Origin: an uncultured beta proteobacterium
GTDB taxonomy: Bacteria; Pseudomonadota; Gammaproteobacteria; Burkholderiales; Burkholderiaceae_C
Direction: 5' to 3'
DNA: 42,645 bases
NCBI GenBank assembly: GCA_903853895.1
Contig: CAINUX010000043.1
Span: 1-42,645, forward strand
Positions within the stretch are counted from its first letter, which is position 1. Each line of letters starts with the position of its first letter. The position numbers and the translations under genes are program-made. A model generated the notes under the pieces. That model saw nothing but the letters and a program-made list of their open reading frames with translations. It was not told where the DNA came from and made no database searches. Below, piece by piece: positions 5,255 through 42,204 of this stretch.

Positions 5255-5382
5255 GACACACGGCGGGCACCGCCCCGCCAAATATGCTGCGCGCGCATAA
5301 CTGGATGACAAACAATCGTTTGTCGCCGCCTGCGTTCGGCACTACGATGCAGGGCAAACCAACGCAGACCCGAAAGAAACCC

Positions 5383-6573
5383 ATGGCCCACGCATCCTTC
5401 AACTGGCAAGACCCGTTCTTGCTCAATAGCCAACTCACCGACGACGAACGCATGGTGCGCGATGCCGCCGCCGCCTACTGCCAGGACAAGCTCCTGCCTC
5501 GCGTGACCCAGGCGTTTCGCGATGGCACGACCGACCCCGCCATCTTCCGCGAAATGGGTGAACTGGGCTTGCTAGGCCCCACCATCCCCGACATCTACGG
5601 CGGCCCAGGTTTGAACTACGTGTCCTACGGCCTGATCGCCCGCGAGGTGGAGCGTGTCGACAGCGGCTACCGCTCGATGATGAGCGTGCAAAGCTCACTG
5701 GTCATGGTGCCGATCTTTGAATTCGGCACCGAGGCACAGCGCCAGAAATACTTGCCCAGATTGGCGACCGGTGAATGGATTGGCTGCTTTGGCCTGACCG
5801 AGCCCGACCACGGCTCCGACCCCGGATCCATGGCGACACGCGCCCACAAGGTGGCCGGTGGCTACAAGCTCAGCGGCAGCAAGATGTGGATCAGCAACAG
5901 CCCGATTGCCGATGTGTTTGTGGTCTGGGCCAAGGAAGTGAGCGAGGGCGGCCAAGTCGGCCCGATCCGCGGCTTTGTGCTGGATAAAGGCATGGCAGGT
6001 TTGAGCGCACCCGCCATCCATGGCAAGGTGGGTCTGCGCGCCAGCATCACTGGCGAAATCGTCATGGACGGCGTGTTCTGCCCCGAAGAAAATGCATTCC
6101 CCGAGGTGCGCGGCCTCAAGGGCCCATTCACCTGCCTGAACAGCGCCCGCTACGGCATCGCCTGGGGCGCGCTAGGTGCCGCCGAAGACTGCTGGCTGCG
6201 CGCCCGCCAGTACACCATGGACCGCAAACAGTTCGGCCGCCCGTTGGCCGCCAACCAGTTGATCCAGAAGAAGCTGGCCGACATGCAGACCGAAATCGCA
6301 CTGGGCCTGCAGGGCTGCCTGCGGTTGGGTCGCATGAAGGACGAGGGCACGGACTCGGTGGAGATCACGTCGATCCTGAAGCGCAACTCCTGCGGCAAGT
6401 CGTTGGACATCGCCCGCCTGGCGCGGGACATGATGGGCGGCAATGGCATCTCGGATGAGTTTGGCGTGGCACGGCATCTGGTGAACCTGGAGGTGGTCAA
6501 CACCTATGAAGGGACGCATGACATCCATGCGCTGATCCTGGGACGGGCGCAGACGGGGATTGCGGCGTTCTAA
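5383..6573 (+). CDS. gcdH: Glutaryl-CoA dehydrogenase
   Basis: This FAD enzyme oxidises and decarboxylates glutaryl-CoA to crotonyl-CoA in lysine, tryptophan and glutarate breakdown. It has 396 residues, the family's normal length. The acyl-CoA dehydrogenase signatures are [19 protein letters not shown] and the C-terminal [17 protein letters not shown], whose Glu is the catalytic base; the [11 protein letters not shown] wording is diagnostic for this subfamily. The start is the ATG at 5383 ([11 protein letters not shown]), preceded by a GAAAG-type ribosome site; the frame stays open upstream but has no family similarity. The CoA-transferase 311 bp downstream probably supplies glutaryl-CoA. 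The intervening DNA contains two large hairpins. Confidence 0.96.
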
Positions 6574-6594
6574 CTTCTCGCCTACTTCATTGCT

Positions 6595-6676
6595 AGCTGG
6601 AATGGGGGTAAAGGCCTCTGCCTCATACTGTCCTGCTGGCCAGAAATCGGCGGAGACCTTTACCCCCATTCCAGCT
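6595..6676 (-). repeat. Long hairpin with conserved loop, element 1
   Basis: The arms 6595-6622 and 6649-6676 pair over 28 bp. The outer 20 bp are perfect (6595-6614 with 6657-6676), and the inner 8 bp have two transition mismatches. The 26-nt loop 6623-6648, read on the minus strand, is GATTT, CTGGCC, AGCAGGACAG, TATGA. It sits 21 bp after the gcdH stop. There is no T-tract, so it is not a classical terminator, though it could stall RNA decay. Its loop matches that of element 2 (6740-6815), which lies in the opposite orientation. Confidence 0.85.
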
Positions 6677-6739
6677 GCGATAGAGATTGGCACACGCGGC
6701 AATTTGAATTCCACGCCACAGACTCACACGCTACTGCTC

Positions 6740-6815
6740 GCCGGGTGGGGCACGGCTGGGGGCCGATTTGCTGGCCTGCAGGACAGATGAGGCCCCCAGC
6801 CTTGCCCCACCCGGC
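6740..6815 (+). repeat. Long hairpin with conserved loop, element 2
   Basis: The 25-bp arms 6740-6764 and 6791-6815 pair with a single mismatch. The 26-nt loop 6765-6790 reads GATTTG, CTGGCC, TGCAGGACAG, ATGA on the plus strand, nearly identical to the loop of element 1 read on the minus strand. The stems differ strongly in sequence between the two elements, yet each pairs internally. The element ends 69 bp before the CoA-transferase start. With element 1 it accounts for most of the 311-bp gene-free stretch 6574-6884; I see no open frame there that I believe. Confidence 0.85.
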
Positions 6816-6884
6816 AGGCACCAGCCCCGGTATGTGTGATCACACAAACTCTGCTGCTTCAAAAAAGTCAAAACGAAAGCAACC

Positions 6885-8135
6885 ATGACCGAAAAGCCCT
6901 CCGCCCTCCCCCACATCAAGGTCCTGGACCTCTCCAGGGTTCTGGCCGGGCCCTGGTGCACCCAGATGCTGGCCGACCTTGGCGCCGACGTCATCAAAGT
7001 GGAAAAACCAGGCGAAGGCGACGACACCCGCCACTGGGGCCCACCCTTCCTGCAGGACGCCCAGGGCAACAGCACGAAGCACGCCACCTACTTCACCGCC
7101 TGCAACCGCAACAAACGCTCCGTCACCATCGACATCGCCAAACCCGAAGGCCAGACACTGATTCGCCAGATGGCGTTGGAAAGCGACGTGCTGGTGGAAA
7201 ACTTCAAAGTCGGCGGTCTGGCCAAGTATGGACTGGACTATGCGAGCCTGAAGGCGCTGAACCCGCGTCTGATCTACTGCTCCATCACCGGCTTTGGCCA
7301 GGACGGGCCCTATGCCGAACGCGCGGGCTATGACCTGATGATCCAGGCCATGAGCGGCATGATGGACATCACCGGCCGGGCCGATGGCACACCCGGTGGC
7401 GGCCCGCAACGCGTGGGCGTGGCGCTGACCGATTTGTTCACTGGCGTATATGCCTGTAGTGCCATCCTGGCGGCCATCGAGGTGCGGCACCGCACCGGCG
7501 TGGGGCAGTTGATCGACATGGCCTTGCTCGATGTCGGCATGGCCATCCTGGCCAACCAGGCGGCCGGTTTTCTGAACACCGGCAAGGTACCGCAGCGCCA
7601 GGGCAACAGCCACCCCAGCCTGGCGCCCTACCAGGACTTTCCCACGGCAGACGGCGCCATGCTGTTGGCCATCGGCAACGACGGGCAGTTCGCCCGCTTT
7701 TGCGACGCCACGGGCCAAGCACAGTGGGCAGCCGACCCACGCTATGCCACCAACACCTTGCGGGTCGAAAACCGCGCCGTGCTGATTCCCGCCATCGAAG
7801 ACATCACCCGCCAACGCACCACGGCCCAGTGGATTGCGCTGCTGGAGCACAAGGCCGTGCCCTGCGGCCCCATCAACACGATAGGCCAGGCCTTTGCGGA
7901 TGAGCAGGTTGTGGCTAGAGGTCTTAAGCTAAATCAGCCGATAGCCCTCGAAACCATTGCACATACTGCTACTCATTCAATAGCAACGGTTGCCAGCCCC
8001 TTGCGTCTGATGGACACGCCTGCGGTGGTGCACCGGCCACCGCCCGCGCTCGGCGAGCACACGAACGAAGTGCTGGCCGGGCTGGGGCTGGACGATGCTG
8101 CCGTTGCAGCGCTACGGGATTTGGGTGTGGTGTAA
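6885..8135 (+). CDS. CaiB/BaiF family III CoA-transferase, probably glutarate-specific
   Basis: The enzyme moves CoA between carboxylic acids by a ping-pong mechanism through an aspartyl-CoA thioester. It has 416 residues and starts with the family hallmark IKVLDLSRVLAGPWCTQMLADLGADVIK in two overlapping parts. RLIYCSITGFGQDGPY and GYDLMIQAMSGMMDITG follow; Asp150 in the latter is the expected nucleophile. The gene directly follows gcdH, so succinyl-CoA:glutarate CoA-transferase is the best guess from context. Residues about 344-367 (around NQPIALETIAHTATHSIA) are encoded by a copy of a dispersed repeat and look like an in-frame insertion before the conserved VASPLRL. The DNA there is locally richer in A+T and its codon use differs from the rest of the gene. 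Confidence 0.9.
   Translation: MTEKPSALPHIKVLDLSRVLAGPWCTQMLADLGADVIKVEKPGEGDDTRHWGPPFLQDAQGNSTKHATYFTACNRNKRSVTIDIAKPEGQTLIRQMALESDVLVENFKVGGLAKYGLDYASLKALNPRLIYCSITGFGQDGPYAERAGYDLMIQAMSGMMDITGRADGTPGGGPQRVGVALTDLFTGVYACSAILAAIEVRHRTGVGQLIDMALLDVGMAILANQAAGFLNTGKVPQRQGNSHPSLAPYQDFPTADGAMLLAIGNDGQFARFCDATGQAQWAADPRYATNTLRVENRAVLIPAIEDITRQRTTAQWIALLEHKAVPCGPINTIGQAFADEQVVARGLKLNQPIALETIAHTATHSIATVASPLRLMDTPAVVHRPPPALGEHTNEVLAGLGLDDAAVAALRDLGVV
7914..7985 (-). repeat. Dispersed repeat, copy B, inside the CoA-transferase gene
   Basis: Read on the minus strand this gives TGCTATTGAATGAGTAGCAG, then TATGTGCAATGG, then CGAGGGCTAT, then GGCTGATTTAGCTTAAG. The order and spacing match the intergenic copies, mainly copy C. 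It is translated in the antisense sense as part of the CoA-transferase, without a stop codon and without breaking the frame. Confidence 0.7.
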
Positions 8136-39791: not shown

Positions 39792-39799
39792 CCGGTCTT

Positions 39800-39902
39800 C
39801 CCAAGGAGCGCTGCAGCGGCCGGGCACTGTGCACACAGTGCGTCAACGGCCGCCAGGCTTGGGTTTGTCAACGGCGCTCACTTGTCTACCGAGAAAGTGA
39901 GC
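39800..39902 (+). promoter_or_regulatory. SAH riboswitch 1 with expression platform
   Basis: This has the S-adenosylhomocysteine riboswitch layout. P1 is CCCAAG (39800-39805) with CTTGGG (39858-39863). The core GGAGCGCTGCAGCGG leads into a long P2 hairpin with GCACTGTG paired to CACAGTGC at its tip. A pseudoknot joins GAGCGC (39806-39811) to GCGCTC (39874-39879). Downstream, GCTCACTT (39876-39883) can instead pair with AAGTGAGC (39895-39902), which contains the GTGAG ribosome site nine bases before the metH ATG. The pseudoknot and this helix exclude each other, so SAH binding should free the ribosome site and turn translation on. Confidence 0.93.
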
Positions 39903-42000: not shown

Positions 42001-42112
42001 GACCGTGGTGTCCGCCTCTGTGCCCGGCAGACGACGACTGCTTTCAGGCAATGGTTGTGATGGTAAACCACCACGGCACGCGCAGCACGCCGGTTCTCCC
42101 TTAAAATTCCGT

Positions 42113-42204
42113 CATCCAAGGAGCGTTGCAGCGGTCACACAGTGGTCCCGTCAGGCTTGGATGTCCCAACGACGCTCACCTGCCAGTGCTTTTTTACAGG
42201 TGAG
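42113..42204 (+). promoter_or_regulatory. SAH riboswitch 2 with expression platform
   Basis: P1 is CATCCAAG (42113-42120) with CTTGGATG (42156-42163). The core GAGCGTTGCAGCGG is followed by a short P2. The pseudoknot is GAGCGT (42121-42126) with ACGCTC (42172-42177); compared with riboswitch 1 one C-G pair is replaced by T-A, a compensatory change. CTCACCTG (42175-42182) can pair with CAGGTGAG (42197-42204), which holds the AGGTGAG ribosome site of the next gene, and this helix overlaps the pseudoknot strand. The same on-switch logic as riboswitch 1 is expected. Confidence 0.93.

Follow-up and report, generated by a model that had tools for sequence, protein, structure and literature searches.

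A large family of long, structure-defined hairpins in the Comamonadaceae, proposed to act as REP-like single-stranded DNA elements

Two long hairpins encoded on opposite strands of a 42,645-nucleotide stretch of DNA from an uncultured beta proteobacterium (contig CAINUX010000043.1; hereafter the window) are members of a large, multi-copy repeat family found within one bacterial family, the Comamonadaceae. The repeat family is strongly structure-selected, and its members follow a common plan: a 27-bp stem that varies in sequence but pairs, a near-fixed internal loop of GATTT and ATGA, and a variable apical hairpin. The explanation we favor, and to which we give about an even chance, is that of a REP-like single-stranded DNA hairpin, which would be read strand-specifically and copied or moved by a putative host DNA-processing enzyme.

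The two hairpins lie between an acyl-CoA dehydrogenase gene and a CoA-transferase family III gene (Table 1). A sequence-only reading of the window had described two opposite-strand structures with stems of 25-28 bp and loops of 26 nt, placed between gcdH and a CoA-transferase gene. Both hairpins are confirmed here, as is the CoA-transferase gene through its Pfam match, and the putative gcdH is an acyl-CoA dehydrogenase gene by Pfam. Folding of positions 6570-6840 gives an energy of -157.3 kcal/mol, compared with a mean of -99.6 (sd 4.8) for 200 dinucleotide shuffles, none of which reached the observed value (z -11.9). The stems of A and B are dissimilar, while their loops have in common GATTT, CTGGCC, GCAGGACAG, and ATGA. 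In A, GATTT is followed by an apical hairpin, CTGGCC/GGACAG with one G.A mismatch, and then by TATGA; in B, the order is GATTTG, the apical hairpin CTGGCC/GGACAG, and ATGA. Both loops are 26 nt long, yet they differ by one-base indels that cancel each other. The earlier description of a conserved 26-nt loop survives in part: GATTT and ATGA are near-fixed, but the rest is variable, and loops range from 19 to 29 nt in further copies. Nor is the conserved part a terminal loop; it is instead an internal loop beneath a variable apical hairpin. Several other species of the genus carry such hairpins at the same site, 3' of the acyl-CoA dehydrogenase gene. In the closest relative found (G075), hairpin A is absent from this site, as are the central part of B and much of the spacer.

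Table 1. Positions of the hairpins, neighboring genes, and riboswitches in the window
Feature	Position	Strand	Description
Acyl-CoA dehydrogenase gene	5284-6573	+	Pfam; hairpin A at its 3' end
Hairpin A	6595-6676	-	28-bp stem, few mismatches/wobbles; starts 22 nt past the acyl-CoA dehydrogenase stop codon
Hairpin A, 27-bp family frame	6596-6675	-	Motif strand antisense to the acyl-CoA dehydrogenase gene
Hairpin A, loop region	6623-6648	-	26 nt, GATTTCTGGCCAGCAGGACAGTATGA
Spacer, A frame to B frame	6676-6737		62 nt
Hairpin B, 27-bp family frame	6738-6817	+	Motif strand in sense of next gene
Hairpin B, core	6740-6815	+	Near-perfect 25 bp, one mismatch
Hairpin B, loop region	6765-6790	+	26 nt, GATTTGCTGGCCTGCAGGACAGATGA
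CoA-transferase family III gene	6885-8135	+	Pfam; downstream of hairpin B
SAH riboswitch, first	39797-39886	+	
SAH riboswitch, second	42112-42184	+	

The extent of the family emerged from two covariance models. Genome counts are lower bounds, with 16 to 150 candidates scored per genome, and hairpin counts take in the same sites in related genomes, so that the hairpins are not independent. Of 100 same-genus genomes, 57 had matches (E up to 1) to a model built from eight hairpins (R1). A second model, built from 67 hairpins (R2; matches accepted at E up to 0.001), matched 37 of the 41 same-genus genomes with a completeness of 90% or more, with 1 to 36 matches per positive genome and 15 in the window's own. 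In a draw from the family of 299 genomes, representing 126 genera and with 17 candidates scored per genome, R2 matched 59 genomes and 37 genera. Draws from the order and the class, which double as a negative control for R2, contained 5 of 300 and 2 of 276 positive genomes, all in the window's own family; outside it, no match passed the strict filters among these 300 order and 276 class genomes. Searched for on its own, the loop word located another two complete copies in the genome of the window, had no match in 60 relatives even when as many as 3 mismatches were allowed, and appeared in four records of a species collection, three titled Rhodoferax sp. and one Comamonadaceae bacterium. Low-power searches for viral and plasmid carriage (three exact-pattern viral scans and one 45-nt plasmid query, respectively) found no copy. 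The sequence-only reading had looked to a covariance-model search for many further copies with covarying stems, often paired and often in 3' regions, and such copies were found; the contrary outcome, of no further copies or copies with identical stems, did not arise in the R1 and R2 searches.

The length of the stem is fixed at 27 bp. In a set of 157 distinct hairpins, Watson-Crick pairs make up 73% or more of the cells at each position through pair 27, where they account for 78%; they drop to 45% at pair 28 and to no more than 34% from pair 30 on, except 36% at pair 33. Within the 5' arm, G is preferred at positions 3, 10, 15-18, 22, 24, and 27, counted from the loop. The internal loop is GATTT and ATGA in 182 of 185 hairpins, a fixity that is partly ascertained because the loci were fetched through model hits and the scan required GA[TC]TT and A[TG]GA. 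Of 169 long hairpins detected by a loop-blind scan of the fetched DNA, most of it fetched for such hairpins, 149 contained the motif. Among the 53 R1-found hairpins listed, one (L023) has AATTT instead of GATTT, and past the orthologous dehydrogenase gene of G085 the loop is GACTT with AGGA, a T.T to C-G exchange. The internal loop is able to form tandem G.A pairs, 5'-GATTT lying opposite 5'-(N)ATGA, and 33 of the 185 hairpins have a second tandem G.A just beneath it (for example, L257, L261, and L252). This second tandem takes the form of GAC before GATTT and GGA after ATGA, and is lineage-specific. The apical hairpin varies yet mostly pairs. For instance, four apical pairs are formed in 33, 34, 34, and 35 of the 35 hairpins with 22-nt loops, over six stems. 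The same scheme performs much more poorly in the 18 hairpins with 24-nt loops, where each pair forms in 11 to 13, as some of these loops (the CAAAA/AAGCG types) adopt a different fold. On the motif strand, T makes up 15.9% of the 20-nt flank on the 5' side and 10.5% on the 3' side; at 150-200 nt from the motif, the corresponding values are 23.4% and 18.9%.

Pairing is upheld across the family while the sequence of the stem changes. Among 67 aligned hairpins, 97.6% of 1474 cells are paired and changes on both sides are seen at 20 of 22 pairs, giving a covariation score of 0.844, compared with 0.176 when shuffled and at most 0.181 with one arm slid. What had been noticed for two hairpins, that the stems differ yet each keeps its own pairing, thus extends family-wide, and the stem covariation speaks against a simple duplicated spacer and for a selected structure, as had been proposed. 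The same holds at individual sites. In 50 comparisons of sites matched across genomes by similarity of both 250-nt flanks, some of them sharing loci, the 1350 pair positions comprise 894 unchanged, 302 double-changed and paired, 97 changed through G.T, 36 broken (13 of these A.C), and 21 other; pairing is therefore kept at 399 of 456 changed positions. Mean stem identity is 0.72 at the same site, 0.52 within a genome, and 0.47 between unrelated sites; because stems are alike at the same site and not within the genome, recent spread alone is argued against.

Covariation of this kind could, in principle, be mimicked without selection if replication template switching copied changes from one arm to the other. 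Correction of palindromes via template switching is known in bacteria, and at some sites here (L299 to L302) double changes have rewritten 14 to 17 of 27 pairs with none broken. However, such mutational upkeep would erase the mismatched internal loop, which is nearly fixed, and gives no reason for the 27-bp limit, the preferred G positions, or the excess of G.T over A.C. On its own, it is a slim prospect as an explanation, although template switching may act together with selection.

The two strands of the element are not equivalent. With hairpins detected by a rule that is blind to both, scoring neither G.T nor A.C as pairing, the motif strand carries 273 G.T and 31 A.C. Broken down by setting, with a crude ORF caller that makes the "inside ORF" and orientation counts approximate, G.T outnumbers A.C by 194 to 21 in intergenic hairpins (n=135), by 28 to 1 in hairpins sense inside ORFs (n=16), and by 51 to 9 in those antisense inside ORFs (n=27); a rule that counts G.T as paired, and hence favors it, gives 188 to 39, 25 to 5, and 49 to 8. 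Because antisense copies inside ORFs keep the G.T bias, the target of selection is likely to be the motif strand as a single strand, independent of the host transcript. The proposal of a selected RNA or single-stranded DNA structure is supported in its single-strand aspect, by the upkeep of pairing and the covarying stems. Between the two forms, we infer that single-stranded DNA is more likely than RNA to be the working one, since the wobble bias of copies within genes extends to motif strands that are non-coding, which speaks for DNA.

Several features would nevertheless suit a functional RNA, in which the motif strand would be transcribed, antisense to the abutted gene or outward from the pair, and the internal loop would bind a partner. 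G.U wobbles are typical of RNA helices and are strongly favored on the motif strand; tandem G.A internal loops and covariation are RNA-like; and apical loops are most alike within pairs (0.83) and more alike within genomes (0.67) than the background of 0.47, as if fitting a lineage-specific partner, with a likeness of 0.72 at the same site. Against these stand the persistence of the bias (51:9) in antisense copies inside ORFs, where a transcript would oppose the host gene, the pair spacers, in which no common promoter-like block is evident by eye, and the lack of any matching Rfam family. We consider an RNA role rather unlikely, if still worth keeping in view.

Where the hairpins sit relative to genes bears on a further alternative. 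By approximate script gene calls, 38 of 157 hairpins lie inside ORFs. Among intergenic cases with ORFs on both sides (n=104), 77 have on the 3' side of the motif a gene that runs in the opposite direction, and these copies are a median of 33 nt from the stop codon of that antisense-facing gene. A location just past stop codons and between convergent genes is where plain transcription terminators or mRNA decay barriers would be expected, and a decay barrier between the two window genes had been among the roles first suggested. Yet a stem followed directly by a run of T (five or more in 8 nt) occurs in 0 of 185 hairpins when the motif strand is read and in 11 of 185 when the opposite strand is read, A.C mismatches fall mostly on the strand of the abutting gene's mRNA, copies occur inside genes, and the internal loop would be left unexplained. 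Because the wobble-biased motif strand is mostly antisense to the abutted gene and has no T-run, termination or a decay barrier for the neighboring mRNA is highly unlikely as the main role.

Close pairs mostly follow one layout: 44 of 48 are arranged back to back, the 3' ends of the motifs facing outward, and none head to tail. This tally comprises a first set in which 38 of 38 are back to back and ten more, picked by eye from the R2 matches listed, of which six are back to back and four opposite. The four opposite pairs represent one orthologous locus in four species, which adjoins ABC-transporter genes in the one species tested (L299). No same-strand neighbor lies within 600 bp among the 38 close pairs and the ten more, and the spacers of different pairs are not alike.

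Copies inside genes are illustrated by two long proteins. Pfam confirms UvrA hosts at L249, L219 (the window's genome), and L092, and MmeI-type methyltransferase hosts at L228, L230, L200, and L048; resemblance assigns L250, L251, L252, L232, L238, and L052 to UvrA and L229 to MmeI, and a Pfam search of L255 gave no match. Open frames run through the inserted copies in both UvrA and MmeI-type ORFs. UvrA linkers differ among species, with a copy present or absent at the same linker, and the copy occupies the first linker in the window's genome versus the second in the same-genus G099. As UvrA linkers vary in length anyway, these are not clean empty sites, and no insertion event or target duplication was caught among the loci compared. 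In the genome G470, several copies share short flanks beyond the stem. Such comparisons of sequence suggest past gain and loss of copies.

Further observations were made in the same regions. The G470 hairpins (L257-L265) are of two stem types, each flanked differently on its 3' side, one by GCGAGCYCAG and then A-rich DNA and the other by roughly CTCCGG, and pairs often combine both types. UvrA open frames are mostly 1900-2300 aa across the family (for example, L269-L298), and their linkers vary strongly in length and collect repeats, including a tandem-repeat linker in L276. A second kind of long hairpin occurs in UvrA regions, with another common loop, about GGAATCGGAGCCTGCGACTGAC, and differing stems (L291, at three places; L295:948; L249:3670); a variant is present in the window's own genome (L269:1625 and L269:3599).

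Occupation of the same sites in several species, with pairing upheld, is also what would be anticipated of a chromosomal protein-binding site, extruded or single-stranded, that serves replication, repair, or chromosome organization and is kept by function rather than by selfish spread. Absence from the viral scans and a strand-specific single-stranded form accord with such a site, whereas a range of 0 to 36 matches per genome within one genus, loss of the pair at the window site in the closest relative, and the copies in protein linkers do not. On balance, a binding site of this kind appears distinctly improbable.

The sequence-only reading had also suggested a REP-like mobile hairpin recognized by a transposase, and the layout fits this suggestion. 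A Y1 transposase is present in 93 of 100 genomes of the genus; an R1 search of 30 Y1-transposase loci found no such hairpin above chance, the best two matches scoring 15.3 and 14.9 bits (E 0.56 and 0.68), and about 30 kb more around five Y1 genes gave neither an R1 match nor a scan match. Of the seven genomes of the genus that lack a Y1 hit, six carry hairpins, versus 51 of 93 with one. On the grounds of these 30 loci and of the Y1-negative genomes that carry hairpins, the Y1 transposase of the genus is disfavored as mobilizer, less than firmly because most of those seven genomes are incomplete. No transposase was seen near hairpins in the loci inspected, which did not constitute a systematic search. 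Two candidates for an autonomous element between distant hairpins were rejected: at G008:C292, the roughly 540 bp between the hairpins hold no recognized transposase-like ORF, and at G386:C24, hairpins 1.3 kb apart are two copies within one MmeI-type gene. Twelve Y1 loci were checked for other inverted repeats; ten were usable, and a TTGGGGTCAGATTCC-type repeat was found in 2 of the 10. Inverted repeats with TTGGGGTCAGATTCC or TGGGGTCAGAGCCC occur at the Y1 loci L067 and L072 and alone at L146:237, L158:776, and L283:1901, and resemble the GGGGWSAS TIR motif as given in the available text of PMC3733652.

The preferred reading, a REP-like single-stranded DNA hairpin, would bring these features together as follows. 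The copies would be those of a repeated palindromic element defined by its structure rather than by stem sequence, and the form that matters would be one motif strand, single-stranded, folded into a 27-bp stem, a tandem-G.A internal loop, and a small apical hairpin. A putative host DNA-processing enzyme would read this hairpin strand-specifically, and may have been what copied it or carried it, in many cases as an inverted pair, to insertion-tolerant places: just past stop codons, and in linkers within long proteins, UvrA and MmeI among them. The family, its anatomy, its strand bias, the arrangement of its pairs, the location of its copies, and the covariation at matching sites are observed directly, and the DNA form, the enzyme, and mobility belong to the proposed explanation. 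It is quite possible, although we hold this somewhat more tentatively, that the hairpins represent a new class of DNA element, a single-stranded hairpin in which a putative reader belonging to one bacterial family measures a 27-bp stem and a tandem-G.A loop. A reader that ignores stem sequence would thereby leave copies free to change in sequence, in back-to-back pairs, and to persist even inside uvrA.

Searches for small bacterial repeats generally rely on sequence identity and so miss a family such as this one, in which stems from unrelated sites agree at fewer than half of their bases; more structure-defined families may be hidden. The many natural variants of one folded substrate should make the putative reader findable, and the question of whether REP-like palindromes act as DNA or RNA becomes testable. 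UvrA linkers, a recurrent landing place as they are for other REPs in the text available of PMC3733652, can be studied here in many species.

Comparison with known elements identifies relatives in behavior. The hairpins match no known RNA family: Rfam 15 has no match at or above gathering score in the six hairpin loci searched, and a further search gave only sub-threshold microRNA models. In the window, the only matches that reach gathering score lie elsewhere: two SAH riboswitches (RF01057, gathering score 37) of 60.1 and 55.1 bits, both encoded on one strand and separated by about 2.3 kb. Strand-specific folded single-stranded DNA is also seen in integron attC sites, with their variable stem sequences, and in IS200/IS605 ends; the conserved boxes of these elements are found at the base of the stem, close to where cleavage occurs, whereas here the conserved part is near the apex. 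Both are treated as folded single-stranded substrates in the available portion of PMC8266576.

Among the closest known elements, judging from the accessible parts of the literature (PMC3733652, PMC8266576, PMC3116915), are the GTAG REP elements and REPINs with their RAYT (TnpA-REP) transposases. REPs are described as having many chromosomal copies, mostly past stop codons, as forming inverted dimers, as occurring in uvrA and repair genes, and as having frequent G.T pairs (PMC3733652, in part). Here too, copies are many, mostly extragenic and 3' of genes, arranged as inverted dimers, found inside uvrA, and rich in G.T pairs. TnpA-REP reads one single-stranded DNA strand and, in E. coli, requires a bulge in the stem, according to the section available of PMC8266576. 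GTAG REP stems, however, are 6-13 bp with family-conserved sequence, compared with 27 bp and an identity of 0.47 between unrelated sites here, where the conserved part is an apical internal loop and no RAYT was found alongside. GTAG itself occurs within 20 nt on the 5' side of the stem in 11 of 185 hairpins and on the 3' side in 8 of 185, and the reversed word GATG in 9 and 6, which places the GTAG tag at control level. CGTC REPs and Rickettsia palindromic elements are in-frame palindromes inside protein genes with no dedicated transposase known, as far as the text available of PMC3733652 describes them. Open frames run through copies here also, but those elements have stems of 8-9 bp with loops of 4-5 nt, against 27 bp and 19-29 nt here. 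The CGTC tag was found on the 5' side in 19 and on the 3' side in 16 of 185 hairpins, near the 15 and 14 of its complement, GACG, and so is likewise at control level.

Two elements of related bacteria complete the comparison. The beta-proteobacterial repeat element, BRE, is G+C-rich, chromosomal, and intergenic with some copies inside genes; its hosts include Rhodoferax, Polaromonas, Acidovorax, and Delftia, and also Bordetella and Azoarcus; and it forms tandem arrays, in which successive units are separated by few bases or by none, and was found by >70% sequence identity, all as described in the available part of PMC3110155. By that partial description, it resembles the present family in size (75-91 bp against 73-83), G+C content, and some hosts, and is set apart by its tandem arrays, where no head-to-tail pairs are seen here among the 48 close pairs. 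It may be set apart too by its occurrence in Bordetella and Azoarcus, as no match to the present family was found outside the Comamonadaceae in the order and class draws under strict filters. The Burkholderiales-1 candidate motif, for which a table of PMC2864571 gives no Rfam accession, shares with the present family the order of bacteria. As BRE and Burkholderiales-1 are compared by description, the novelty of the family is provisional; in behavior the element is REP-like, and we place it outside the REP families.
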